From: a virus
DNA: 23,846 nucleotides
Direction: 5' to 3' (one strand)
Virus record (IMG/VR): IMGVR_UViG_3300042924_000328
Coordinates: 1 to 23,846 of that record
The notes under the pieces: model-generated
The model's database searches: none
What the model was told of the DNA's origin: nothing
Seen by the model: the letters and a program-made list of their open reading frames with translations, nothing else
Part shown: one piece after another, positions 1-14,306 of the stretch
Layout of the letters: each line of letters opens with the position of its first letter
Position numbering within the stretch: position 1 is the first letter of the stretch
Program-made: the position numbers and the translations under genes

Positions 1-1383
1 CCCATTACACGCAAGTACAAGTGGCCGGGCAGGTACAAGCCCATGCAACACCAGATCGAGACGGCAGCGTTCTTGACCATGCACCGCAAGTCGTTTGTGT
101 TCTCCGAACCCGGCACTGGTAAGACGCTTGCTGCACTGTGGGCGGCGGACTACTTGATGCAGATCGGTCATGTACGTAGAGTGCTGATCTTGTGCCCGCT
201 GTCCATCATGCAGTCCGCATGGTTAGCAGACTTAAGCAACAGCATCATCCATCGCTCTGCCATCGTCGCTCACCACACGCAGGCTAGTCGGCGCATTGAG
301 ATGATTCAACAGGACTACGAGTTCGTCATCACAAACTACGAGGGGTTGAACCTGATAGCCGATGAGATCAATGCTGATGGGCGCTTTGATCTGGTGATTG
401 TGGATGAAGCCAACGCATACAAGACCGTAACCACACGCAGATGGAAGTCATTGAAGTCAATCATCAAACCAAACACACACGTATGGATGATGACGGGTAC
501 TCCAGCATCGCAGTCGCCAGCAGATGCGTATGGCTTGGCCAAGATCGTGAACCCTGACGGTGTGCCCAACTTCTACACAGCATGGCGCGACAAGGTGATG
601 AACAAGATCACGCTATACAAGTGGGCACCAAAAGCCAACGCTGCTGATCTGGTACACGAAGCACTGCAACCAGCGATACGGTTCAGCAAAGCGCAGTGCC
701 TTGACTTGCCCCCAGTGCTGACAACCACACGCGAAGTGCCACTCACACCACAGCAAGCCAAGTACTACACGATGCTCAAAGACCGCATGCTGGTGCAAGC
801 CGCAGGCGAGACGATCAGCGCAGTCAACGCTGCCGCTGGTGTATCAAAGTTGTTGCAGATCAGTTGCGGCGCTGTGTACACAGATGACAAAGAAGTTGTC
901 GAGTTCGATGCTGCCCCGCGCTTGGGTGTGTTGGAAGAAATACTGGATGAGACAGATCGCAAGGTCATCATCTTCGCGTTGTTCCGCTCCAGCATCGACA
1001 GCATCCAGACGCACCTGACAAAGAAGAATATTCCCAACGAGTGCATACATGGTGGAGTCACACCAAACAAACGCGCAGACATCATCCACAGATTCCAGCA
1101 TGAGAAGGAGCCAAGGGTGCTGGTCATGCAACCACAAGCTACGGCACACGGGATTACCCTGACTGCTGCGGATACCGTGGTTTTCTTTGGGCCATTGATG
1201 AGCGTGGAGCAGTACATCCAGTGCATTGCACGGGCTGACCGCAAGGGGCAGAACTCAGACAAAGTTACTGTTATCCACATCCAAGGCTCGCCAATTGAAA
1301 AGAAAATGTTCAAAGCATTGGAGGCTAAGGTAAGTGATAACTCACTTCTTACCCAGATGTTTGAGATAGAAATAAATTCTTGA
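1..1383 (+). CDS. SNF2-family DNA helicase/ATPase, 5' partial
   Basis: The frame is open from base 1; the codons before the ATG at 43 read as helicase sequence (KPMQHQ, a Q-motif-like stretch), so the true start lies outside the window. Numbering from that Met, the Walker A motif is EPGTGKT (22-28), motif II is DEAN (121-124) in place of the usual DEAH/DEGH, motif III is MTGTP (150-154), and motif VI is ARADRKGQ near base 1230-1250. The length and motif order fit the two RecA-like lobes of small phage SNF2-type helicases. Such proteins are superfamily 2 ATPases that translocate on or remodel DNA; in phages they usually sit in replication/recombination operons, as here. The gene ends 70 bp before the next start, with no clear terminator between. 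Family assignment is strong; the exact role in this phage is inferred. Confidence 0.93.
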   Translation, partial: PITRKYKWPGRYKPMQHQIETAAFLTMHRKSFVFSEPGTGKTLAALWAADYLMQIGHVRRVLILCPLSIMQSAWLADLSNSIIHRSAIVAHHTQASRRIEMIQQDYEFVITNYEGLNLIADEINADGRFDLVIVDEANAYKTVTTRRWKSLKSIIKPNTHVWMMTGTPASQSPADAYGLAKIVNPDGVPNFYTAWRDKVMNKITLYKWAPKANAADLVHEALQPAIRFSKAQCLDLPPVLTTTREVPLTPQQAKYYTMLKDRMLVQAAGETISAVNAAAGVSKLLQISCGAVYTDDKEVVEFDAAPRLGVLEEILDETDRKVIIFALFRSSIDSIQTHLTKKNIPNECIHGGVTPNKRADIIHRFQHEKEPRVLVMQPQATAHGITLTAADTVVFFGPLMSVEQYIQCIARADRKGQNSDKVTVIHIQGSPIEKKMFKALEAKVSDNSLLTQMFEIEINS

Positions 1384-1453: not shown

Positions 1454-1858
1454 GTGACTGAAGAACAAGTACCGTTCGATAAGTTGGTGAAGATTTACCG
1501 CAAGATGAAGCTGGAGATCGACACCCTGACACAAGAGTACGACACCAAGGTGGAGTTACTCAAAGCGCAACAAGATGAAATCAAGTTCGCTATCAAAGAC
1601 CAGATGAAGGCACTGGGTGTCTCATCTGTAAAGAGTCCCTTCGGGACTGTATCCATGATGACAAAGACGCGTTACAACACGCAGGACTGGTCGTCGTTCA
1701 AGGAATTCATCCTTGAGCACGCGGCTGTTGATCTGCTGGAGAAGCGCATCGCTCAAACCAACATGGCGCAGTTCCTTGAAGAGAACCCGGGGGTAGTACC
1801 GCCGGGACTGAATTCAAACACTGAGTTTGAAATTCGTATCACCAAACCAACCAAGTGA
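1454..1858 (+). CDS. Small phage DNA-metabolism protein, coiled-coil N-terminus
   Basis: A 134-residue protein starting at GTG, chosen because an AGGAG ribosome binding site lies 7 bases upstream (1442-1446). Residues 8-52 are heptad-rich and probably form a coiled coil. The C-terminal half has a compact pattern (about 62-130) including the segment LLEKRIAQTN and a PPG turn (116-118). I recognise this only as the type of unnamed protein that often precedes the ssDNA-binding protein in phage replication operons; no catalytic motif is visible. Its stop codon comes 7 bases before the next gene's ATG, so the two are probably co-translated. A role in replication or recombination is inferred from context only. 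Confidence 0.8.
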   Translation: MTEEQVPFDKLVKIYRKMKLEIDTLTQEYDTKVELLKAQQDEIKFAIKDQMKALGVSSVKSPFGTVSMMTKTRYNTQDWSSFKEFILEHAAVDLLEKRIAQTNMAQFLEENPGVVPPGLNSNTEFEIRITKPTK

Positions 1859-1865
1859 GTTTTAT

Positions 1866-2834
1866 ATGTCAAACATAACGCTTTTCTCGTCCGCAAACGT
1901 ACCTGCATTCGCTCGTAACAACGAACTGTCCGACACAGCCAGAGCCTTAACAGGCGGCAGCGTCTCCAACACCAAGCGCATCTCTATCAAAGGCGGCGTG
2001 TTCCGTCTTTTAGCTGGTGGCAAGGAAGTTGCAGCAATTGATGACCGCCATCTGGAAGTCGTCATTGTGAAAGCTGCCCCCAAACTCAGCCGCATTTTCT
2101 ACGCTGCTCAGTACGATGCCGAAAACATTGTTCCCCCTGATTGCTGGAGTAATGATGGCGAACACCCTGATGCTTCCGCGCAAAACAGGCAAGCTGAAAC
2201 CTGCATGGCCTGCCCACAAAACATTGCAGGGTCTGGTCAAAACAATAGCCGTGCTTGCCGCTTCCAACAGCGCTTGGCCGTTGTGCTGGCCGACAACATT
2301 GCTGGGGATGTGATGCAGTTGACCCTGCCTGCCACTTCGGTGTTCGGTAAAGAAGAAGGCGACAAGCGTGCGTTACAAGCTTATGCACGTTACTTGGCAG
2401 TGCAGAACCCTCCTGTGAATCCTGAGCAGATCGTCACCGAGATGCGCTTCGATACTAAGGCTGAGTCCCCCAAACTGTTCTTCAAGCCCGTGCGTTGGTT
2501 AAATGACGAAGAGAACGAAGTTGCTAAGGAGCACGCCGCTAGTACTGTTGCACAACGTGCCATCGTCATGACTGTCGCCCAAAGCGATGGCGTGAAGAAC
2601 AACGCGCCAAAGATGGCAATCTCCGGCACACGCCCTATGGGTGACTTGACCAAAGAGGAAGACGCACCTGCCTACGAGCCGATTGCTGAGAAGGCTGAGA
2701 AAGCCAAGAAAGCAAAGCCTGTGGTCGATGCTGAAGACGAACCCGAAGTTCGCAAGGACGCTGCCAAGGCTTCAGCCGTGCCTGCCAAGAAAGGCAAGTT
2801 GGCTGATCTGGTGTCTGAGTGGGATGACGAGTAA
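1866..2834 (+). CDS. Probable phage ssDNA-binding protein with Cys cluster and acidic tail
   Basis: 322 residues from the ATG at 1866. An in-frame ATG at 1827 lies inside the preceding gene, so the later start is preferred although its ribosome binding site is weak. A four-Cys set, C93, C113, C116 and C131, could bind zinc. After about residue 260 the chain becomes Lys/Ala/Glu-rich and disordered, ending in SEWDDE. A basic/acidic linker with an acidic aromatic-containing tip is the hallmark of ssDNA-binding proteins such as T7 gp2.5 and bacterial SSB, where it recruits other replication proteins. The position between helicase and primase genes agrees. I cannot recognise an OB fold by eye, so the assignment rests on the tail, the Cys motif and context. 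Confidence 0.72.
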   Translation: MSNITLFSSANVPAFARNNELSDTARALTGGSVSNTKRISIKGGVFRLLAGGKEVAAIDDRHLEVVIVKAAPKLSRIFYAAQYDAENIVPPDCWSNDGEHPDASAQNRQAETCMACPQNIAGSGQNNSRACRFQQRLAVVLADNIAGDVMQLTLPATSVFGKEEGDKRALQAYARYLAVQNPPVNPEQIVTEMRFDTKAESPKLFFKPVRWLNDEENEVAKEHAASTVAQRAIVMTVAQSDGVKNNAPKMAISGTRPMGDLTKEEDAPAYEPIAEKAEKAKKAKPVVDAEDEPEVRKDAAKASAVPAKKGKLADLVSEWDDE

Positions 2835-2929: not shown

Positions 2930-3268
2930 ATGAGCACATTCGGAACAAACCCACACATACTGCACAGGGCAGACAGCTCTGACACAAGCGTAGCAGCCGC
3001 ATACGAAGTCGACACTACGCGCCTTGAGGGGTTGGTGTACTCCACCATCCACCGCTTCGGTGACCGTGGCTGCATCAGTGACGAGGTGCGTGCGCTTTAT
3101 CCTGAATACCCTTACTCATCCATCACAGCGCGGTATCGTGCGTTGCTGGACAAAGGTTTTATTGAAGACACCGGCGAGCGCCGTCAAGGCAAGTCCGGTA
3201 AAAACCAGCGCGTTATGCGCGCTATCTTTAGAGAGAAAGAAGATGGCCTACTCACAAAAAACCATTGA
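2930..3268 (+). CDS. Small winged-helix DNA-binding protein
   Basis: 112 residues from the ATG at 2930, which has an AGGAG at 2919-2923; an in-frame ATG at 2855 lies in the structured leader and has no comparable ribosome binding site. Residues 32-100 look like a winged helix: a first helix (LEGLVYSTI), a short turn with GCISDEVRA, a recognition-type helix SSITARYRALLDKG (63-76), then a basic wing with ERRQGKSGKNQR (83-94). This layout is common in small phage regulators or replication accessory proteins. The 3' end overlaps the next gene by 26 bases. It could be a transcription regulator of this operon or an origin-binding factor; I cannot distinguish these. Confidence 0.78.
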   Translation: MSTFGTNPHILHRADSSDTSVAAAYEVDTTRLEGLVYSTIHRFGDRGCISDEVRALYPEYPYSSITARYRALLDKGFIEDTGERRQGKSGKNQRVMRAIFREKEDGLLTKNH

Positions 3269-3521
3269 CGCAATCATGCGTGCCCCAAAGACTCAAGGCA
3301 ATCAGCTTGGGCGTTGGGCAGCGCATCTCAACTTTTCAGTTGTGCGTATTGCAAAAGCATTGGGCGTGTCACGGCAGACTGTTTATAACTGGTTTGAAGG
3401 CGGTGAGATTTTTGTTGCCTACGAACACCGAGTTGAAACAATGCTCACGTTCTTGAAGAATTCCAAAACAGCAGATGAAGCATGGAGAAAAATATGTCAG
3501 CACTACGGCCTCGCACCTTAA
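3243..3521 (+). CDS. Small helix-turn-helix protein
   Basis: 92 residues. The start at 3243 is chosen because an AGAGAAAGAAG purine run lies just upstream and the protein sense begins there; the frame is open further upstream only as a shadow of the previous gene. Residues about 33-52 (VRIAKALGVSRQTVYNWFEG) form a clear helix-turn-helix of the Cro/C1-like kind, the SRQTVYNW part being the recognition helix. Its 5' end overlaps the winged-helix gene and its 3' end overlaps the next small gene, so three small proteins are translated as a compact block. A Cro-like regulator or DNA-bending accessory protein is plausible. Confidence 0.78.
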   Translation: MAYSQKTIDAIMRAPKTQGNQLGRWAAHLNFSVVRIAKALGVSRQTVYNWFEGGEIFVAYEHRVETMLTFLKNSKTADEAWRKICQHYGLAP

Positions 3522-3682
3522 GCAATCAAGAACTCATCAAATACTTTGCCATGTATGTGGACGACAACCCGATGGGTGCACCACTGGATTGGCAGATTGA
3601 ATTGCTGCGCCGCTTCATTGCAGTAGCACCAGAAAAAGAACACCCTCCGCACGACGACGCACAACTCGACCTGTTCAAATAA
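3494..3682 (+). CDS. 62-residue protein with C-terminal sliding-clamp-binding motif
   Basis: The ATG at 3494 is preferred over the in-frame ATG at 3482 because GGAG (3484-3487) sits six bases before it. The protein is mostly helical in character (LSNQELIKYF..., DWQIELLRRFIAV) followed by a charged linker (EKEHPPHDDA) and the C-terminal end QLDLFK. QL(S/D)LF is the consensus peptide by which bacterial proteins dock in the hydrophobic pocket of the DNA polymerase III beta sliding clamp; here it sits at the extreme C-terminus after a flexible linker, as in many clamp binders. The gene lies directly before the primase-helicase. The family is not recognised; clamp binding is inferred from the motif. 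It could recruit the host replisome or inhibit host replication. Confidence 0.75.
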   Translation: MSALRPRTLSNQELIKYFAMYVDDNPMGAPLDWQIELLRRFIAVAPEKEHPPHDDAQLDLFK

Positions 3683-3699
3683 CCCAACCGAGGATACAC

Positions 3700-6591
3700 A
3701 TGAACCCGCTTGAATTTCTAGCGGTTGTTTTGCCGTCCCCGGATAATGGGTTGTACTGTGCGGCAGAGCTAACTACAAAAAAGAAGGAGCACAATTTTGT
3801 TGAACATCTGGAGGAATTACCCGAAGCCGTAGCCAAGTGGGGCGACAAGAAAGACATTTACTTCGCACTATCCACGTTTGAGAACAAAGGCAAGCGCACA
3901 GCCGAGAACGCACGGTTCATCCGGTCGCTGTTCATTGACATGGATGGCTACGACACCAAGAAGGCAGCGGCAATGTCGCTCAACGATTTCATGGTCAAGA
4001 CTGGGCTGGACTTGCTTGGCACACCGTACATTGTGGACTCAGGCGGTGGCTTGCACTGCTACTGGCCGTTCACAAAGGATATACCTGTTACTGAGTGGAA
4101 ACCGGTTGCTGAGAACTTCAAGCGCCTGTGCAGACAAGAAAACATGAGTATTGACATGACGGTGACTGCGGACTCTGCCCGAGTACTGCGCTTCCCCGGC
4201 ACGTTCAACAACAAAGAGAAATACGCTGCGCCGCGACCGGTGCGCATACTAGCCGAGGGCGACACGTTTGATTTCGATGACTTGGCCAACCACATTGAGA
4301 GCCAGCTTCGATCATTGCCGATGCTTCCGCGCCAGCAGAACACAACCCTCGCACTGCCCGGCCAACGCCCTGACGCACCACACACGCCCACCACCGTCAA
4401 GCTGTTTGAGAACAGCGTCACGTTGTTCAAGAACATCTACAAGAAGACCAAGGATGGCGCAGGCTGTGAGCAGCTTCGGCACTACGCTGAGAACGCAACC
4501 GATGATGGCATGGAGCCGTTGTGGCGTGGATGGTTGAGCATTGCACAGAAGTGCACCGATGGCGAGAAGGCCGTGATCTGGTTGTCTGACCTGCACCCAT
4601 ACCCACACGAGCGCATGCACCAGAAGTTGGCTGAGATCAAAGGGCCATACCCATGCGTGAAGTTTGACTCAGAGAACCCCGGCATCTGTGACGGGTGTCT
4701 GCACAGGGGCAAGATCACAAACCCACTGGCGCTTGGACGTGAGACCGCCGTGGTAACCGCTGAGACTGCGCTTGCACTACCAGCAGAGGATGGGCAAGAA
4801 ATAAAAAAAGTCATCCGCCCTGAAGCACCAAAGGGTTATGCGTACGGTGTTCGGGGCGGTGTGTTCATGGAGAAGGAAGACACAGACGCTACAGGCAACG
4901 TGACGAAACGTCAGATCATGTTGCTACCCTACGACTTGTTTCCTGTGGACATCTTGAACCATAACGGTGAACATCTTGTGCACATGATGGCTGTGCGGGA
5001 CTACAAGGTGCAGCCCATATCTTTTGCACAGAAGGCCGTGGTCAGCAAAGACGAGACAGTCAAAGCGCTGGCACAGCAGAACGTGATGTCCAGCTTTGGC
5101 TCGGGCAACGACAAGAATCTGTACGACTACGTACGGGCTTGCGTAGAGAAGATGAGCAGTGAGAAGAAACCAATTGAAGTGCCCGACAACTGCGGCTGGC
5201 AACCCAATGGCACTTTTGTGTGGGGCGGCAAGATTTACGCACCCAACAAAGAAGCCATTGAAGTGCCCATGCCCGGTCTTGAGAACATCACAATGAACTC
5301 CAAGCCCACCGGAACGCTGGAGGATTGGCGCAAGTTTATTGAGCTGCTGGTGCGAAGAAAGCTTTGGGATCACTTGGCCGTCATCCTGATCGGCGCTGGC
5401 TCACCATTGATGCGCTTCACAGGGCTACACGGTTTGACCATTCACTGTGCCTCGACCGACTCCGGTACTGGCAAGTCGCTGGCGCTTGAAGGTGCGGCAT
5501 CCATCTGGGGTCACCCCGTGCACTACCGTACAGGTGCTGGCACTTCCGCTGTTGCAATGCAGCAGCGACTTGGTTTACTGCACAGCAACCCACTTATCAC
5601 GGACGAGATCACCAGCAGGAACCGTGAGGGGTTTGAATGGTTTCCTGCGTTCCTGCTTAGTATGACCGAGGGTCGCGGCAAAGAGCGCATGGAGTCTGGT
5701 GCAAACAAAGAACGCTTAAACTTGTCTACATGGTCAGCGATGGCGATCATGTCATCAAACACCCACGTCGTGGACAACTTGACTGGCCTTCGCAAGCATG
5801 CTGCCGAAGGTGAGCTTCGCCGCGTGATTGAGTACATCATGGACGACAAGTTGGAGTGGGATGCTGATGAGATTGAAATCATCAAGTCTTTGCGCAACAA
5901 CTACGCAGTGGCAGGCGCTATGCTGGTGCAGTACATGGTTGACAACATCGAGATGGTTGGGACGTTGGTAAAACAAACTGTTCGCCAGATGTACACCGAG
6001 TACCGTGCGCCCAACGATGAAAGGTTCTGGATGGCTGGCGTGGGGTGCGCTATAGCTGCTGGTATTTTGATGAACAACGAACACGCTAAGATTGCCGAGT
6101 TCCCGCTGGTTGAAGTGATCGAGAGTTTTCGTAAGCGTATCAATCACCAGCGCGGCTGTATCAAAGGTAGCTACCGCACAGCCGAAGACGTGCTCAACGC
6201 ATTTGTGCAAGAGTATCAGGGCAAGTTTGTGGTGGTCAAGTACGGTGCTCAAGCTGGCCCACTGGCGCATCTTGGCGATGGTTCAATGGTGGACAGAAAC
6301 ACGACACGAGCCGAAGTCATGGGGCGTGTGGAGCACGGTGTCACAGCAGGGCATGTGGACTTCTTCATTGAAGAGCGTCTGTTGAAATCGTTTTGCTCAA
6401 ACATGAGTTTTGGGTATTCCAACTTGGTGCGGCAGTTGAAGGACTTGTTCTCAGTGTCCTATGTCCAGAAGAAAGACATGATGTCCAAGACCAGTGCACC
6501 GCCGATGAGAGTGTCGGCCATACACATCAGCCGAAAGATAACGGACACAGATGAAGCAATTATTAATCCGCTATCCTTGGAAGGGTCTTGA
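3700..6591 (+). CDS. Primase-helicase: AEP-type primase fused to DUF927-like ATPase
   Basis: 963 residues, ATG preceded by GAGGA. The N-terminal part resembles an archaeo-eukaryotic (AEP) primase-polymerase: DMD at 80-82 supplies the metal-binding acidic pair, SGGGLHCYW (114-122) is the sGxGxH motif, and RVLRFPGTFN (161-170) carries conserved basic residues. A linker follows with C285, C319, C330, C333 and H335, a zinc- or FeS-binding cluster typical of these fusions. The C-terminal half is a helicase-type ATPase of the DUF927/superfamily 3-like kind: Walker A SGTGKS (588-593), Walker B ITDE (D635, E636) and a sensor-1 Asn, N687. It likely unwinds the fork and lays primers. Its 3' end is overlapped by 41 bases by the next gene. 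Domain identity is strong; polymerase activity beyond priming is unknown. Confidence 0.9.
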   Translation: MNPLEFLAVVLPSPDNGLYCAAELTTKKKEHNFVEHLEELPEAVAKWGDKKDIYFALSTFENKGKRTAENARFIRSLFIDMDGYDTKKAAAMSLNDFMVKTGLDLLGTPYIVDSGGGLHCYWPFTKDIPVTEWKPVAENFKRLCRQENMSIDMTVTADSARVLRFPGTFNNKEKYAAPRPVRILAEGDTFDFDDLANHIESQLRSLPMLPRQQNTTLALPGQRPDAPHTPTTVKLFENSVTLFKNIYKKTKDGAGCEQLRHYAENATDDGMEPLWRGWLSIAQKCTDGEKAVIWLSDLHPYPHERMHQKLAEIKGPYPCVKFDSENPGICDGCLHRGKITNPLALGRETAVVTAETALALPAEDGQEIKKVIRPEAPKGYAYGVRGGVFMEKEDTDATGNVTKRQIMLLPYDLFPVDILNHNGEHLVHMMAVRDYKVQPISFAQKAVVSKDETVKALAQQNVMSSFGSGNDKNLYDYVRACVEKMSSEKKPIEVPDNCGWQPNGTFVWGGKIYAPNKEAIEVPMPGLENITMNSKPTGTLEDWRKFIELLVRRKLWDHLAVILIGAGSPLMRFTGLHGLTIHCASTDSGTGKSLALEGAASIWGHPVHYRTGAGTSAVAMQQRLGLLHSNPLITDEITSRNREGFEWFPAFLLSMTEGRGKERMESGANKERLNLSTWSAMAIMSSNTHVVDNLTGLRKHAAEGELRRVIEYIMDDKLEWDADEIEIIKSLRNNYAVAGAMLVQYMVDNIEMVGTLVKQTVRQMYTEYRAPNDERFWMAGVGCAIAAGILMNNEHAKIAEFPLVEVIESFRKRINHQRGCIKGSYRTAEDVLNAFVQEYQGKFVVVKYGAQAGPLAHLGDGSMVDRNTTRAEVMGRVEHGVTAGHVDFFIEERLLKSFCSNMSFGYSNLVRQLKDLFSVSYVQKKDMMSKTSAPPMRVSAIHISRKITDTDEAIINPLSLEGS

Positions 6592-6739
6592 AAAGGGGCA
6601 GGGGTTCTTTGTACCCTGCCTCGACACGGCTGAGATAAAACGTGAAGGTTTGAACAAGGCGCTGTCCTTGCGCCTGTTCGATGCCCGAGCCACCCCGTGT
6701 ATACGAGATGGACTTATTGGGGTATGGTTTTATCGGTAG
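6551..6739 (+). CDS. 62-residue small phage protein, last gene of the + operon
   Basis: It starts inside the 3' end of the primase-helicase gene (41-base overlap) and ends at a TAG immediately followed by a strong terminator hairpin (6740-6776). The reading has protein-like texture: a basic amphipathic start (MKQLLIRYPWKGL), then GQGFFVPCLD (16-25), a helix with EIKREGLNKAL (28-38), and a hydrophobic end GLIGVWFYR (54-62). I believe similar short proteins with a G-FFVP core occur after replication genes in other phages, but I cannot name a family. The ribosome binding site is weak (CGGAC), suggesting coupling to the upstream gene. Function unknown. Confidence 0.68.
   Translation: MKQLLIRYPWKGLEKGQGFFVPCLDTAEIKREGLNKALSLRLFDARATPCIRDGLIGVWFYR
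6591..6620 (-). terminator. Candidate rho-independent terminator of the - strand operon
   Basis: On the - strand, GGCAGGG (6620-6614) and CCCTGCC (6603-6597) form a perfect 7-bp stem with a 10-base loop. It is followed by CC and TTTT (6594-6591). It lies about 94 bases past the stop of the 2530-residue gene and inside the opposing 62-residue gene. The T tract is short, so strength is uncertain. Confidence 0.4.
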
Positions 6740-9700
6740 CCTGCTCCACAGTTGTGGCGAAGCGGGTTTTCATTTTGCGAATCTCGTCCAACTGCCTACG
6801 TTTTTCTTCGGACGTTGCGTTGGATGCTTTGATAGCGTTTTCGTACTGGGTTAGCTCGCGCATGGTTGACGTGTAGTAATCGGCAACCTCGGCCATTGCA
6901 TACTCATTGCCGCGCGTACTCAACAGTTCCAGCGCATCAGCTTTATACCCGCGATTAATTAAGTTATCAACGGACTTTTCAACTTTCTTAAATTCGTTCA
7001 TGCGGTCATACACGCGTGTGCTAATTGCGCCAGCATCGTTGGGCTGGAATGCGCTACCAACAACGGGCAGATCAGACAACCGTTTGACCGCAGCTTGCGG
7101 GCCTTCTTGTTTGGGCAAACCCAAACTAACGGCCTGCACAAACGCTAGACCCATTGCGCCGGTATAGCCTTGCACTAAGCTGTCCAAAATGATAGGGGAC
7201 ACGCCCGCAACGCTGCCAATTGTTTTGGCCACTTCAGAAGTTTTCTCACGGAACTGATATTCTGGAAGCAATTCTTTTTCGGACGCAGACAAAATGTCGC
7301 GGCCTGTGTAGAACGACTTACCCAACCCTGCCTCAATAGCTGGACGCATAGCTTGCGGTATGCCGTATGAAGTACCGCCGGGAATCAACTGTTTCAAGAT
7401 ACTGGTAAATGCTTGAACCGCTTCTTCTTTGCCGTGATCGTTGACCATGCTGTTGTACAAGGCTTCAGGCAACGCTTTGAAGATGTAACCAATCTCAAAA
7501 GGAATGGGCAGACGTACAGGCTCATCAACGCCCGGAATACGGATAAACCAGTTGCCGTACTTTTCTTCAGGACGTGCGTTCTTGTAAGCCTCGTCGTCTT
7601 GCATAGCAACGGCGTACGCCAACGTGCCTCCAGCAATCATGCCGCCACGCAACAAAATCTTGCGCTGAATCTTCAACTTTTCATTGAACGGCAATTTGCC
7701 GCCAATTGCTTTGTACAGAACATTCAAACCTTGAATCTGTGCATTGAAGAACGGAATCAATGAGTTAGCCCAATGCACGCTTGGAGAAGCGCCGCGCTTG
7801 TTAAAGTTCATGGATTCCAACGACATCAAAGTAGCTTCCATTTCTGACAAGCCTTGTTTGATGTAACTGTTGTACTGGGCGCGGCGAGTAGAGGCATCAG
7901 CCTCCATGTTGATAGCTTCGAGTTTTCCAAACGCTTGCACCCAGCCGCTGTTATCGTTGGCAATATCGCGCAAGATTTTTGAAATGTCTTCGCTGGAGCC
8001 AGTAAAAATCTGCCCGCCAGTAATACCCCGACGCTCAAGTATGTCTTTGGTAGAACCTTTACCAATCTGACGCAAAGCACCAATGACCGGCATAAAGTCT
8101 GCACCGGCCAATATGGGCGCTGCCAACGAATCACGGAACAACTGCCTAGCGGCGTACAACGGCGATGCTGTAACGGCTTTACGCAAGAACGTGGCGGGCA
8201 TGCCCAACAAACGGAACATACCGGGCATCTGTGTGGGGATACCTTCCATGCCCTTGACCAACACATCCGCAGGCACACCAGCGTCGTCAGTGTTGATGAT
8301 TGCGTAACGATCTTCGCCATCAACTTTAAAACGAACAATGTCCGGGCCAGCCATCTTGGTCTTACCAATCTTGGCCAAACCCATGTTGGCTAATTCAATG
8401 ATTGCGTTCTTGGTTGATAAGTTGCGCAAACCCATGTCCGCCAGCATGTTGGTGTTCTGTACGGAGCTAGTCATGAAATCCAGAATGGGGCGGTCGCCGC
8501 CAATCAACTCTTGCAGGTAAGGCTGTTCTTTTATGTTGCCAATCTTGATAGGCGCTTCACTGCCAATGACCAGTTCGGCAACGCCATTGCGCTCACGATA
8601 CCAAGGGATGTAGTCGTTGTTCTTTGTCAGTTCAGTAGCCACTTCTTTAGAGATAGCGCCGGTCTGTGCAAGGAAGTTCATCATGTCCTTGTTGTAGGCG
8701 TTGTACTCGGCACGGGCAGCGTCAAAGATTTTTTTGACTTCTAGGTTCTTGTCAATGGATGCCTTGGCTGCTTTCAGATCGGAAGGAGTCAAGTCTTCCC
8801 CAAAGTGCAGAGCCGCAAACCCTTTATCTTCTGCACGGATTGCGGACATGTACATCGTAAACAAACGGTTTACAGCTTCGCCGTTACCCACCAATGGTGT
8901 AGCCTGTTTCAAAATGCCGACTGTGTTGGCGATACTGGCTCCGCCGCCCGCCTCGATGACGCGCTCAATACTGCCGTCCTTGCGGGTTTTCTCAATGATT
9001 TGCAGTGCGCCGTTGCCTACAGCCTGAGACACAAAGTTCATGCGTTGGTCGTACATGCGCAAGTAGTACATCATCTGCGTGCCAATCAGCGGCTTCATGA
9101 TTTTGGACAAACGCTCAAAGCCCGCGAAGCGGTCAACGTATTGGGTTTCAAAAACAAGCCCAGATGCGTTAGCCTTGACCTTGTCGTAAATTGTGCGGTT
9201 CTTGGCCACAAACTTGTCAGTCACCTTGCCAGCAAATGCAAAGTCTGGATTGACGTATGTAGCTTTCTGATAAACCAAACCTGTGCCAGCCGACTGCATA
9301 CTGACAGGAGCTGACATAAGCGTGTCAACAGAAGCCAACGCCACATCCAGCATGTTCTCTGGGGTTTTTATACCCAGCATGTTGAGCAGTATCTTCTTGA
9401 AAGACTCCCAAGCGTTTTGCAAAGTCCAAGGCTTTTGTTTCAACTGGGCTTGCAATGCGTTGTTGGACAACGCTTCGGCCACAAACTCGCTCAGGCTTTC
9501 CTTGGCGTTTTCGCTGGTAATTGTGTCGTCGTTTTTGATTGCCTCATACAGAGCAGTCAGTTCTTTCTTGGCCGTACGCTGTTCGGGCGTTAACTGGTCT
9601 TCGGGCGTTTTCAGGATACGTTCGGTAGCAGCGTGCACTGATTCGTGCAGCAGCGTTTCTTCGTTCATGCCTGTTTTGCTGTCCAACCAAATATCCATGC

Positions 9701-12700
9701 CGTCCGCAGATGCGGCACCAAAGGCGGCTTCGCCAGTGTCGGTTTTAAGGCCGTCAACCAGCGTGACTTTGGTGTCAACCAGCAGCTTCTTCAAGCGTTG
9801 GGCAATAGCCCTGTTGAGTTGACTCTTTGATGTACGGGACACATCGTCAAGCGCAGTTACAACTTTGCCGCGTTTGAGTTCGGCTATAGCCGAGGCTGAC
9901 AACGGCACCGCGCTTGCTTCTGTCAGTATTTGGTAATTAATACCGGACGGATAAAATTTTGTTTTTTGGTCAATAAAAGATTGTTCAAAAACGTTAAGTG
10001 TTTTACCGCTTGCTTTTTTCTGAAGCAGCTTATCCACGCGTTCTTTGTCTTGTTTGGTCAACTCTTCTTGGCCAACACCTTTGCTGCTGTACGTAGTCTT
10101 TTCGGGTTTGATGCGCTTTTGTACTTCAGAACGCGTCAGCTTCTCACCGCTGGTGGTTGGCGCGTTGGCACGCTTACCGGCTTCAACACCTTGTTCTTTT
10201 TGTAGGGCTGCGGCAACCGCTTTCTTTTGCTTTCTGTCTGGTTTGATTTCACCCTTTGCTGGCTTTTCTTCAGGCAGTCGAATCTTGCCGCTGTTAATCT
10301 TGTCTTCCAGTGAATCGGCCTTGTTGTAGAACTCGGACAACTCTTGGATGTCCTTGGCCATACCCTTCCATGTCAACGGCTCACTGGCAAGTTTGGTTGC
10401 AGCGTCGTCATACGCATTTTCAGCGGCTTCCAATTTAGGCAGTATTTCTGAACGCTGATCCGCAAACTGTGCGGCTTTGTACTGTTTGTCCAGCTTGTCG
10501 CGTGTTTCCAGCAAGTCTTTCAGTTCTTGCATTCGCGCTTCATTAGAAGTTGCCTGTGCTTGGCTTAAGCGTTTTTCAATGGTTGTGATGCTACTGCGGT
10601 AGCCACCCAAAACTTTAAGCGGGTTCTTGGTGACATCAAACTGTTCTTCTTCAGACAGTACTGGCTCGCCCATTTCTCTGGATGCACGCTGTGCTTCTGA
10701 AATAGCGGGGATTTCAACACCGCGTACAGACTCGCCGTACATTGCTTCGAGGCGCTCTTGTTTTGCTTTGCTCAGGTCAACACGTTCTTGTACAGACTTG
10801 GCTGCGGCAACAGCATCGGCAGTGCGTTTGGCACGGGCGGCTTCTTCTATTTGTTTTGCAACTTCCTTGTTTGCGTTGCTTTCAATAACACCCTTGGCGC
10901 GTTGAGCGTCTAGTACGTTTTGCTTTGCGGTAGCCAGCGCTTCTTTGGATGCCAGTTGTGGGTTGAGCTTAGCCAATGTTATTTTGGCGGCTTCAACTTT
11001 CATTTGCGCTTCAAGCGTTTGGAGTATTAAATTTACCTCTAAGACATTAGTAGAAGCTTCATGCAGTTGTTCTTCTACGTCATTGAGTTCTTGCATGAAA
11101 GGCAGTTCAACGGTCTCACCAAGAGCACGCCCTTCCTCAATAAGCATCCTGCGTAATTGCTGCATTCCTTCCAGACGACCTTGCAATTCCATGCGATCAA
11201 TAACCCGATCAGTCATGACAGCTCGAACCTTATTTATATCTTGGCGTTGTTTGCCCACATCACGGTTAAGCTGGATGGTGCGTGCCGCATCTGAGTAGTC
11301 CAGACGAATCTTTTCCATCTCACTGGCTTTGGCTTGCAGCTCTTTGATTTTTACTTTTAAATCGTCAAGCTTGGCACGGTCAATAGCTTTTTGGTCAGTT
11401 CGCAAAGCTTTACGTAGCTTGTTGACAAACGGGCTGCGCATGAAACGCTCAAACGCTGCACGGTCTGGTTTGATGTAACCAAGCTTCTTCTCTTCATCTG
11501 GGAACAACCCCATCTGGCCAGCTTGGTCTTCAGCCAACGCACGTTCGCGTGCTGTCAGTAACGGTTCAATCTCGTCCTGCAAAGACAGCGGTTGTGCTTT
11601 TGCGCTTGGCCCGCGCAGAGTGTCGCGAGTTACATCTGATACGCGCTTGTTGATTGCAGTATCGCCAACAGGGAATGCTTGCAGTGTGGTGGGCTTCGGT
11701 GCGCCTGCTCTGGCACGGCCTTCTGCACCGCTTTCAATTTTGCGTAATTGTTTGTCAAGCAGGGACAACACGCCTTGGTTGTCTGTCTTGGGAAGAATGT
11801 TTTCTGCCCTGCGCAAGAATGCATAGGTCTCATCAGTCAGGCCGGGCTGTGCAAGGGCGCTGGCAATGCGTTGAGAAATTTCTTCTGATGTGTTTGCACG
11901 AGTTGGTTCGCCTTGGCGGGCAAACAAACGGAAACCTTCGCTTGGCGCTTTCTGCACTTTTCCTGCTGGAACAGCGGTTCCTGTACGAGCAGCACGAGAA
12001 ACTAAATTATCTGCTTGAAGGGGAGACTCAAATGGTGCTCGACGTAATACTTCTTCTGCACGTTGTAAATTTTGTCGAGCTTCAACCAACTGTTCTTTTA
12101 AATCTTGTGTAAGTTCTGTTCTACGGTCTTCGCTTATATTTTTTGACTCGGCAACCTCTCTTAAAGATTGCGTTACGTTATCCACTACATTACGCGCATC
12201 ACGGTATTTTCTTTGGGCATCCCCAACAAGTAAAACTTGGGCAGTGTCCGTTAATACGGCTGAACCTTTTGGTGGTGGTTCGCCACCGCGTGTGGGAATC
12301 TCAATGCCCATCTCTGGGCCTTCATCTTTGCGGCCTGCGATGCGCTGTATACCTTGAATCTCTGGGCGAATCTTCTGTTGATACTCTTCTTCCAACGCTT
12401 TGCGGCGTGCGGCTTGGGCTTCTGTTAAACGTTGGGTAAAGTCTTTCTGTGTTTCCGACACCTGTTCTTTGGTGGCTTTGCCAAAGTCAAGACCCATTTG
12501 TCCGGGCTTTGCTGTCTTGGCTTTCTCTTCCAGCGCACGGATGGTTTTAATTATCTTGTCGGCTTTTACAGGGTCATACCCTTCACCACCCAAACTTTGA
12601 AGCTGGGCTTTTTGTTTTTCAATCTTGGCGCGAATAGCGTCTAGGGAATCATCCGCAGGCTCCGCACCCATTTCGCCCAACTGTTTGTTGAGGTACTCCT

Positions 12701-14306
12701 GTTCATTGAGCAGCATCTGACGCTGGGGGCGCAGCTTATCAAGCGCGTCTATGTCACCTTTAGCGGCAGCGTCTGCTTCTTTTCTTTGGTGGGACTCCAG
12801 TAACTGCGCCAGCTCTTGCTGTTTCTGCATGAACTCTGAGCGTCTGGCCGTTAAGTCTTCCTGTGGTGGGGGCGGTACGTTCTCAGTTTCCATTGGCTCA
12901 AGGCCGGGGATGCGCTCTTGATACCCTTGGATACCTTCCGCAGGTCTTTCTTTTTGTTTTGACGCTTCCAGCGCGTCTTGTATTTCTTTTTGGCGTGCAG
13001 CTTCAGTCTGTATGCGGGTTTGTTCGTCGCGCTGTTTCTTTAGGTTGTCGCGGATACTTTTAGTTTGCTGGTAGTCCGCAATGACTTGTTTGTATCTGTC
13101 TGTCTTTTTAAATGTTTTGAGCGCGTTTTGTGCAGCTTTCTTAGCCTCTTCCCCGGCCAAGTCTCCATCGGCAACTTTGCTTCTGGCAGTTTCTTTTAGC
13201 TGAGCGTGTTCTTGTTGCAGCTCGATGTATGCTGTTTCAGCTTGTTGTGCAAACTCCGGTGACTCACGGCGTATTTTTTCTGCGGCGGCTTGTTCAGCAG
13301 TAGCGGCCTCTTGAGCGGCGCGGTCTTTTTCTTCTTGTTCAAGTCCAGCCATGCGTTTTTTACGCAAGTCCAACATCTGCTCTTGGTCAACTTGTTGCCG
13401 CGCACCACCAACTTCAGATATGCGACCGACTGCACCCAAGGGGCCAAGCAAGCTGACCTGATAGGCGGTTTCGCCATATTCTTTCAGTGCGTCTGGGCTT
13501 GTTAGGGATAACCCTGCTTGCGCACGTTGCAGCATTTGCTGGGCAACTTCTGTGGGAATTTCCGCCATCACACCGGTTGTGGTGCCTTTGGCCAGTGTGG
13601 CAAGTAAGCGTTCTTCGGCTAATTTTGCAGCTTGTGCAGATGTGCGACCCAGTAGTGTTTCAACGGGAAGTCCGGTCAGTTTGCTGACCAGTCTGCCGCC
13701 CAAGGGAATAAAGCTACCTGCTACATCCAACCCGCCTTGCAGTGCTGCTGCTGGCAACGCTTTGCCTACGCTGACTGGTTGACCTTCGGCTGCCTGACGT
13801 TCAACGTTACCGCCCAACTGTTGCAAAACTGAAGGAGCAATAAAGCCTGCACCACCGCCAATGACAGAACCCACAGGCCCAAATGGTGAGCCTGCCAAAG
13901 CACCAAGACGAGCGCCGCCAATATTGGTGGCTAAATTGGGAAGTTGTTCGGCAAGTGCGTAAGGGATTTGACCAAGAGCTTCGCCAGCGGCAGAAAGCAA
14001 ACCTTTATCTTCGTAGGCTTGCTTGACTTTTTCAAGGCTTACTTGTTGGGCATAGCGTTTGTTGATGTCTTCGCCGCGCTCCAACCCGGCCCTAGCCGCT
14101 TCATCACCTGAACCAACCAGCGAACCAATACCAGAACGTAACTGGGAGAGGGTTGACTCAGCGCCTTTTTGAATTCCAGCAATCAACCCCTCTTTGGGTT
14201 TCGGTGCCAAAAGTTGCTCGCGAATTATTCGCTCTGCTTCGTTGTGCGGGACACTGTCCGGGAATTCAACGACACGCCCATCGGGCAACGCAACTTCATA
14301 AGACAT
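6714..14306 (-). CDS. Giant polyvalent virion protein: zincin (MPTase-PolyVal-like) and LPD38-like regions
   Basis: 2530 residues; AAGGA lies before the ATG, overlapping the previous gene's stop. Residues 1-35 carry a short N-terminal module (VVEFPDSVP). Residues about 105-165 are Gly/Ala-rich and hydrophobic, possibly membrane-inserting. About 310-1450 is dominated by charged coiled coil and Ala/Gln/Lys-rich linkers. HESVH (1554-1558) with downstream acidic residues in SEFVAEAL (E1607, E1611) is a zincin metallopeptidase signature. The C-terminal part, about 1700-2400, has DYIPWYRERNG, ASPLYAARQLFRDSL (from about 2047) and IPFFNAQIQGL (around 2185), matching the LPD38 type seen in large polyvalent proteins. 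Such proteins are carried in the particle and ejected with DNA; roles in ejection, host-wall passage and takeover are proposed for the class. It is the last gene of the - operon. The peptidase's substrate is unknown. Confidence 0.88.
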   Translation of the reverse strand: MSYEVALPDGRVVEFPDSVPHNEAERIIREQLLAPKPKEGLIAGIQKGAESTLSQLRSGIGSLVGSGDEAARAGLERGEDINKRYAQQVSLEKVKQAYEDKGLLSAAGEALGQIPYALAEQLPNLATNIGGARLGALAGSPFGPVGSVIGGGAGFIAPSVLQQLGGNVERQAAEGQPVSVGKALPAAALQGGLDVAGSFIPLGGRLVSKLTGLPVETLLGRTSAQAAKLAEERLLATLAKGTTTGVMAEIPTEVAQQMLQRAQAGLSLTSPDALKEYGETAYQVSLLGPLGAVGRISEVGGARQQVDQEQMLDLRKKRMAGLEQEEKDRAAQEAATAEQAAAEKIRRESPEFAQQAETAYIELQQEHAQLKETARSKVADGDLAGEEAKKAAQNALKTFKKTDRYKQVIADYQQTKSIRDNLKKQRDEQTRIQTEAARQKEIQDALEASKQKERPAEGIQGYQERIPGLEPMETENVPPPPQEDLTARRSEFMQKQQELAQLLESHQRKEADAAAKGDIDALDKLRPQRQMLLNEQEYLNKQLGEMGAEPADDSLDAIRAKIEKQKAQLQSLGGEGYDPVKADKIIKTIRALEEKAKTAKPGQMGLDFGKATKEQVSETQKDFTQRLTEAQAARRKALEEEYQQKIRPEIQGIQRIAGRKDEGPEMGIEIPTRGGEPPPKGSAVLTDTAQVLLVGDAQRKYRDARNVVDNVTQSLREVAESKNISEDRRTELTQDLKEQLVEARQNLQRAEEVLRRAPFESPLQADNLVSRAARTGTAVPAGKVQKAPSEGFRLFARQGEPTRANTSEEISQRIASALAQPGLTDETYAFLRRAENILPKTDNQGVLSLLDKQLRKIESGAEGRARAGAPKPTTLQAFPVGDTAINKRVSDVTRDTLRGPSAKAQPLSLQDEIEPLLTARERALAEDQAGQMGLFPDEEKKLGYIKPDRAAFERFMRSPFVNKLRKALRTDQKAIDRAKLDDLKVKIKELQAKASEMEKIRLDYSDAARTIQLNRDVGKQRQDINKVRAVMTDRVIDRMELQGRLEGMQQLRRMLIEEGRALGETVELPFMQELNDVEEQLHEASTNVLEVNLILQTLEAQMKVEAAKITLAKLNPQLASKEALATAKQNVLDAQRAKGVIESNANKEVAKQIEEAARAKRTADAVAAAKSVQERVDLSKAKQERLEAMYGESVRGVEIPAISEAQRASREMGEPVLSEEEQFDVTKNPLKVLGGYRSSITTIEKRLSQAQATSNEARMQELKDLLETRDKLDKQYKAAQFADQRSEILPKLEAAENAYDDAATKLASEPLTWKGMAKDIQELSEFYNKADSLEDKINSGKIRLPEEKPAKGEIKPDRKQKKAVAAALQKEQGVEAGKRANAPTTSGEKLTRSEVQKRIKPEKTTYSSKGVGQEELTKQDKERVDKLLQKKASGKTLNVFEQSFIDQKTKFYPSGINYQILTEASAVPLSASAIAELKRGKVVTALDDVSRTSKSQLNRAIAQRLKKLLVDTKVTLVDGLKTDTGEAAFGAASADGMDIWLDSKTGMNEETLLHESVHAATERILKTPEDQLTPEQRTAKKELTALYEAIKNDDTITSENAKESLSEFVAEALSNNALQAQLKQKPWTLQNAWESFKKILLNMLGIKTPENMLDVALASVDTLMSAPVSMQSAGTGLVYQKATYVNPDFAFAGKVTDKFVAKNRTIYDKVKANASGLVFETQYVDRFAGFERLSKIMKPLIGTQMMYYLRMYDQRMNFVSQAVGNGALQIIEKTRKDGSIERVIEAGGGASIANTVGILKQATPLVGNGEAVNRLFTMYMSAIRAEDKGFAALHFGEDLTPSDLKAAKASIDKNLEVKKIFDAARAEYNAYNKDMMNFLAQTGAISKEVATELTKNNDYIPWYRERNGVAELVIGSEAPIKIGNIKEQPYLQELIGGDRPILDFMTSSVQNTNMLADMGLRNLSTKNAIIELANMGLAKIGKTKMAGPDIVRFKVDGEDRYAIINTDDAGVPADVLVKGMEGIPTQMPGMFRLLGMPATFLRKAVTASPLYAARQLFRDSLAAPILAGADFMPVIGALRQIGKGSTKDILERRGITGGQIFTGSSEDISKILRDIANDNSGWVQAFGKLEAINMEADASTRRAQYNSYIKQGLSEMEATLMSLESMNFNKRGASPSVHWANSLIPFFNAQIQGLNVLYKAIGGKLPFNEKLKIQRKILLRGGMIAGGTLAYAVAMQDDEAYKNARPEEKYGNWFIRIPGVDEPVRLPIPFEIGYIFKALPEALYNSMVNDHGKEEAVQAFTSILKQLIPGGTSYGIPQAMRPAIEAGLGKSFYTGRDILSASEKELLPEYQFREKTSEVAKTIGSVAGVSPIILDSLVQGYTGAMGLAFVQAVSLGLPKQEGPQAAVKRLSDLPVVGSAFQPNDAGAISTRVYDRMNEFKKVEKSVDNLINRGYKADALELLSTRGNEYAMAEVADYYTSTMRELTQYENAIKASNATSEEKRRQLDEIRKMKTRFATTVEQATDKTIPQ
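6740..6776 (+). terminator. Rho-independent terminator of the + strand operon
   Basis: CCTGCT (6740-6745) pairs with AGCGGG (6761-6766, one G-U), and inside it CCAC (6746-6749) pairs with GTGG (6754-6757) around an AGTT loop, with a three-base CGA bulge. TTTTCATTTT follows directly. It begins one base after the stop codon of the last + gene and lies within the C-terminal codons of the opposing gene. The placement supports the reality of that last small gene. Confidence 0.72.

Follow-up and report, generated by a model that had tools for sequence, protein, structure and literature searches.

A tiny gene in the replication module of a viral contig (IMG/VR record IMGVR_UViG_3300042924_000328; the window is the whole stretch of 23,846 nucleotides that was analysed) encodes a protein whose C-terminal tail very probably binds the β sliding clamp of the bacterial host, judging from its sequence and those of its relatives. 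We give about an even chance to the whole protein being a two-part adaptor that belongs to the phage replisome and docks on the host clamp. In such an adaptor, the terminal QLDLF on its flexible linker would dock into the peptide pocket of the host clamp DnaN, and the predicted N-terminal helical hairpin would hold a protein of phage replication. The likeliest candidate for this protein is the primase-helicase encoded downstream, and the family A DNA polymerase (PolA) is a possible one; phage priming, unwinding or synthesis would thereby be brought to DNA-loaded host clamps. The setting, as seen in the relatives, would be phages without a DnaN of their own and with a motif-free polymerase.

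The product of the ORF at 3494-3682 on the plus strand is MSALRPRTLSNQELIKYFAMYVDDNPMGAPLDWQIELLRRFIAVAPEKEHPPHDDAQLDLFK, with QLDLFK as its C-terminal letters. An in-frame ATG at 3482 is a second possible start, but the start at 3494 was preferred because the GGAG at 3484-3487 fits it. The gene overlaps the helix-turn-helix (HTH) gene (3243-3521) and its stop lies 17 nt ahead of the primase-helicase gene (3700), which agrees with the initial annotation that placed it directly before that gene. In comparison with relatives, dN was lower than dS overall, and the dN of the linker was several times that of the core. The AlphaFold2 (AF2) model, built from 35 sequences, contains helices at residues 11-24 and 31-44 with a pLDDT of about 90, forming a two-helix hairpin without strands. 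The C-terminal tail had a pLDDT of 50-60 and no secondary structure, so it is predicted to be disordered and accessible, as expected for the flexible linker that had been proposed from the sequence.

Table 1. Features of the replication module in the window and parts of the tiny gene
Feature	Position	Strand	Basis or remark
SNF2-type helicase, cut at the left end of the window	1..1383	+	PF00176; gene of relatives begins further upstream
Small protein with weak Mu-Gam-like matches	1454..1858	+	Pfam/PHROG
Putative SSB-like protein, acidic WDDE end	1866..2834	+	phrog_27714 (unknown function); assigned from tail and position only
Small gene, phrog_1123 (unknown function)	2930..3268	+	Only in some relatives
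HTH protein, overlaps tiny gene	3243..3521	+	PF13384
GGAG, probable ribosome-binding site of the 3494 start	3484..3487	+	Sequence
Tiny clamp-motif protein, 62 aa + stop	3494..3682	+	ORF; dN << dS against relatives over entire gene; 88 distinct homologues
Core, predicted two-helix hairpin, residues 11-44	3524..3625	+	AF2; also kept in tail-less relatives
Variable linker, residues 46-56	3629..3661	+	Top column entropy and top dN; length differs among relatives
QLDLF, putative clamp-binding motif, residues 57-61	3662..3676	+	Conservation, chance estimate, rules in PMC11139829
AEP primase / DUF927 helicase, probable partner	3700..6591	+	PF06048, primase PHROGs

The protein had been described as otherwise unrecognised, and this still holds. 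No Pfam or PHROG profile matched it at E-values up to 1, Rfam gave no match, and neither did a profile search of solved structures. The fold search with the 62-residue model returned nothing at E < 0.001, the best match being an uncharacterised phage protein of 58 residues. Among sequenced phage isolates, tblastn with five queries found no convincing homologue, and the weak matches in isolated phages were judged to be due to chance. In prokaryote genomes the only match was to one contig from a metagenome-assembled genome, therefore there was no sign of prophages. This contig (L090), which carries the tiny gene and was binned as Myxococcales from a lake metagenome, probably comes from a phage that ended up in the bin.

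Peptides that bind the bacterial clamp follow the pattern Q-aliphatic-x-[LM]-[FL] or a six-residue form of it, in which positions 1, 4 and 5/6 are the most important and position 2 is tolerant; QLDLF is the strongest pentapeptide reported for the peptide pocket (PMC11139829) and was built into Pol III alpha so that it would hold the clamp more tightly in cryo-EM work (PMC4703070). From the residue frequencies of the window, QL[SD]LF would be expected 1.5e-4 times among the 10 C-terminal residues over all of its 18 genes, and the loose form Q..[LM]F 0.022 times. Loose internal matches are expected by chance about twice per window; QIELL inside the core and QIMLL/QVMLL in the helicase conform to the loose form as well, but fall within regions predicted to be structured and were disregarded. 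An internal QMGLF that matches the clamp motif is also found at residue 931 of a 2530-aa protein (6714-14306 of the window), and is missing from most homologous ORFs.

Searches of viral contigs recovered 27, 58, 74, 80 and 80 loci, in overlapping sets, the final two with profiles trimmed of the tail. The core HMM gave 88 distinct IMG/VR proteins, 87 of which have Q-x-x-L-F at the end, with 0-4 further residues behind it. These ends fit Q-[LIRKQ]-[DNSE]-L-F, position 2 being non-aliphatic in some, and the conserved motif was recovered also by query profiles lacking the tail. Within the 35 close sequences, Q57, D59, L60 and F61 are invariant, L or R occupies position 58 and the linker (46-56) is variable; it is longer in some of the more distant members. 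Across 114 distinct ORFs the motif codons differ synonymously, and variants of the motif include QLDLF, QLELF, QLSLF, QLNLF, QQNLF, QKDLF and QAPLF. The sole exception among the close relatives (L067) has a stop right before the motif, near the end of its contig, and the motif codons still follow. All other gene families of the replication module lack a conserved terminal motif. As the motif end is kept in nearly all close relatives, the protein probably plugs the phage copying machinery into the host clamp, or blocks the clamp.

Scanning the genomes for terminal motifs revealed a second small protein family in some of the same phages, which was then searched with its tail removed. It is unrelated to the first, is recognised by LQYxYPNGGSNYVVYV (L359:921-1259, L362:19027-19374 and L365-L401) and was not seen in the window. 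Clamp-type ends were found in all 19 distinct sequences, in five-residue (QGDLF, QLPLF, QQDLF) and six-residue (QLNLPF, QLSLPF, QLTLPF) forms, and remote members deviate (QLPLW, QLPLL, QQPLVW, QQRFTY).

All of these queries for the tiny protein were derived from motif-bearing proteins, therefore a second sample was anchored on the helicase gene, comprising 80 loci; at least 579 helicase loci exist. A core homologue was recognisable ahead of the helicase in 71 of the 80 and was seen by eye in two more (L269, L270), giving about 73. The five-residue motif was present in 24 of them (QLELF, QLDLF, QRDLF, QAPLF, QASLF, QLKLF, QLRLF) and a six-residue motif in 6 (QLPLPF, QIPLPF, QLPLLF, QLELPF), so that 30 of the about 73 have either form. 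The other 43 are motif-free and end shortly past the hairpin or in GFADG-type repeats. Repeats of the GFADG/GFEEG type replace the clamp motif in many tail-less relatives (L225-L243), one of which weakly matches phrog_4785. The presence of the motif switches at least 6 times on the helicase tree, indicating that it has repeatedly been gained, lost or exchanged; TKPLF in L289, next to QAPLF in L283, looks like a decayed motif. The tail is a detachable module on the predicted helical hairpin.

The tail-less lineages that were examined share this module, which contains no substitute clamp motif in them; terminal matches elsewhere in two tail-less genomes were in ORFs that look spurious. Clamp docking is therefore dispensable in these lineages, and the tail, missing from several lineages, is not universally required. 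The proposal that the QLDLFK end is a bacterial clamp motif is thus well supported at the sequence level by the invariant Q1, L4 and F5, the six-residue forms and the second family. In the suggested comparison of homologues, asking whether a terminal QLxLF is more conserved than the rest, the close relatives keep the motif as the linker drifts, but distant homologues without it exist, which partly goes against the proposal.

The place of the tiny gene is fixed. The HTH gene is ahead of it in all 127 loci, and the primase-helicase gene follows right after it in each of the 124 loci that reach that far. The gene order of the relatives is PolA - SprT - Cas4/RecB - HNH - SNF2 - Gam-like - SSB-like - HTH - tiny - primase-helicase, with PolA lying some 5 kb ahead of the tiny ORF. 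Because the left end of the window cuts the SNF2 gene, the polymerase is expected just beyond it. That no phage DNA polymerase was in view is literally correct within the window but misleading, and the premise of a polymerase-less phage is wrong for the group, as 15 of 16 and 18 of 22 long relatives have a family A polymerase. One contig of 75 kb (L085, G016) has a second, far more canonical family A polymerase at 69576-70727 (E 1e-59), beside that of the module. The polymerase was rejected as a carrier of the clamp motif because the PolA proteins of the relatives lack it; one loose match at the extreme start of one stop-to-stop polymerase frame was discounted. The middle domain of DnaN, the one type of clamp that the search covered, was found in none of 16 long relatives, whose records are possibly incomplete.

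The probable partner, the primase-helicase, has 963 aa; its N-terminal part matches phage primases and its centre is DUF927. The fold modelled for the primase-helicase of a relative matches SCCmec Cch, SaPIBov1 Rep and the AEP primase-polymerase (PrimPol) of cyanophage S-2L. As the core persists without the tail, a separate partner is expected for it, and its constant position with the primase-helicase makes a partner in the phage replisome probable. Tethering of the primase-helicase by the tiny protein is plausible on the grounds of this invariant neighbourhood. Both proteins were also modelled as a pseudo-fusion, by reading through the stop in relatives with the two genes in frame, which is a modelling device and not a claim of readthrough. 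The pLDDT of the hairpin was 70-80 in the pseudo-fusion, compared to about 90 alone, and no confident dock was seen, as judged by pLDDT.

Instead of recruiting the clamp, the protein could fill its peptide pocket and shut off the host polymerases, which we consider unlikely, if the best of the alternatives. The affinity reported for QLDLF would suit such a takeover, absence of the motif from some lineages fits a dispensable factor, and a phage-encoded clamp inhibitor is already known in Gp168 of phage Twort. Gp168 resembles the tiny protein, as proposed here, in being phage-encoded and aimed at the host sliding clamp; however, it sits in the DNA channel of the clamp and stops clamp loading (PMC11139829), whereas the motif of the tiny protein is of the pocket type. 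A takeover is also at odds with a gene that is fixed in a replication module and with tail-less relatives that retain the core, a part that would be superfluous in a pure blocker. We therefore rank the adaptor above a pure blocker, as it accounts better for the retention of the core together with docking by the tail.

It is improbable that the tail binds something besides the host clamp, such as a phage protein, with a coincidental likeness to clamp motifs. The R, K or Q at position 2 of some members and the many relatives without a tail would agree with a coincidence, but these phages have two unrelated families whose alternation between five and six residues and fixed Q, L and F conform to the clamp rules. 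Substitutions in the tiny-protein family likewise follow the published rules, being tolerated at position 2 with positions 1, 4 and 5 fixed, and R, K or Q at position 2 may result in weaker binding. Least probable is a clamp-dependent regulator like Hda, for which the loaded clamp would switch the AAA+ primase-helicase (ATP hydrolysis, initiation control) and not tether it: in Hda, too, the clamp motif is terminal and disordered (PMC11139829), and the gene that always follows the tiny one encodes an AAA+-type helicase, but the tiny protein has no AAA+ domain and no likeness to Hda.

The mode of binding proposed for the adaptor is already known. Pol II, Pol IV, Hda and IS transposases with QLxLF likewise have a disordered terminal Q-x-x-L-F or Q-x-x-L-x-F (PMC11139829, PMC4549789), but the phage protein is a 62-residue hairpin plus motif, is not an enzyme and has no sequence relatives among them. 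The hairpin-plus-motif family is undescribed in the libraries and open-access papers searched. The MP protein of SCCmec, the partner of CCPol with Cch2, is also small; its operon encodes a family A polymerase together with a self-loading helicase, and MP binds both CCPol and the helicase (PMC7581432, PMC10061031). However, MP is an ssDNA-binding OB-fold protein, whereas the tiny protein is modelled as two helices and shows no OB fold. Pseudomonas phage Rollin and Rhizobium phage RHph_TM3_14A (L072, L073) have a similar module with a related helicase (24-27% identity), but a homologue of the tiny protein is absent beside it. The helicase of RHph_TM3_14A is annotated as an integrase.

In many lineages the tail probably adds docking on the host clamp to whatever the core provides, going by the motifs found. 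A tentative extension, possible but not favoured, is a hybrid replisome in which small, exchangeable adaptors from at least two unrelated families would put the phage PolA and primase-helicase on the host clamp in trans. Such adaptors would stand in for a motif on the polymerase itself or for a phage-encoded clamp, and lineages would switch between five- and six-residue motifs or have none.

Clamp motifs are known from bacterial enzymes, Hda and transposases. Should the small phage protein be an adaptor, it would illustrate a way for phages whose family A polymerase lacks the motif to make use of the host clamp; should it be a blocker, it would be a natural example of a protein carrying the pentapeptide known to bind the pocket most strongly. 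The natural presence, absence and five-to-six-residue switching of the motif provide a ready series on the value of clamp docking to a phage.
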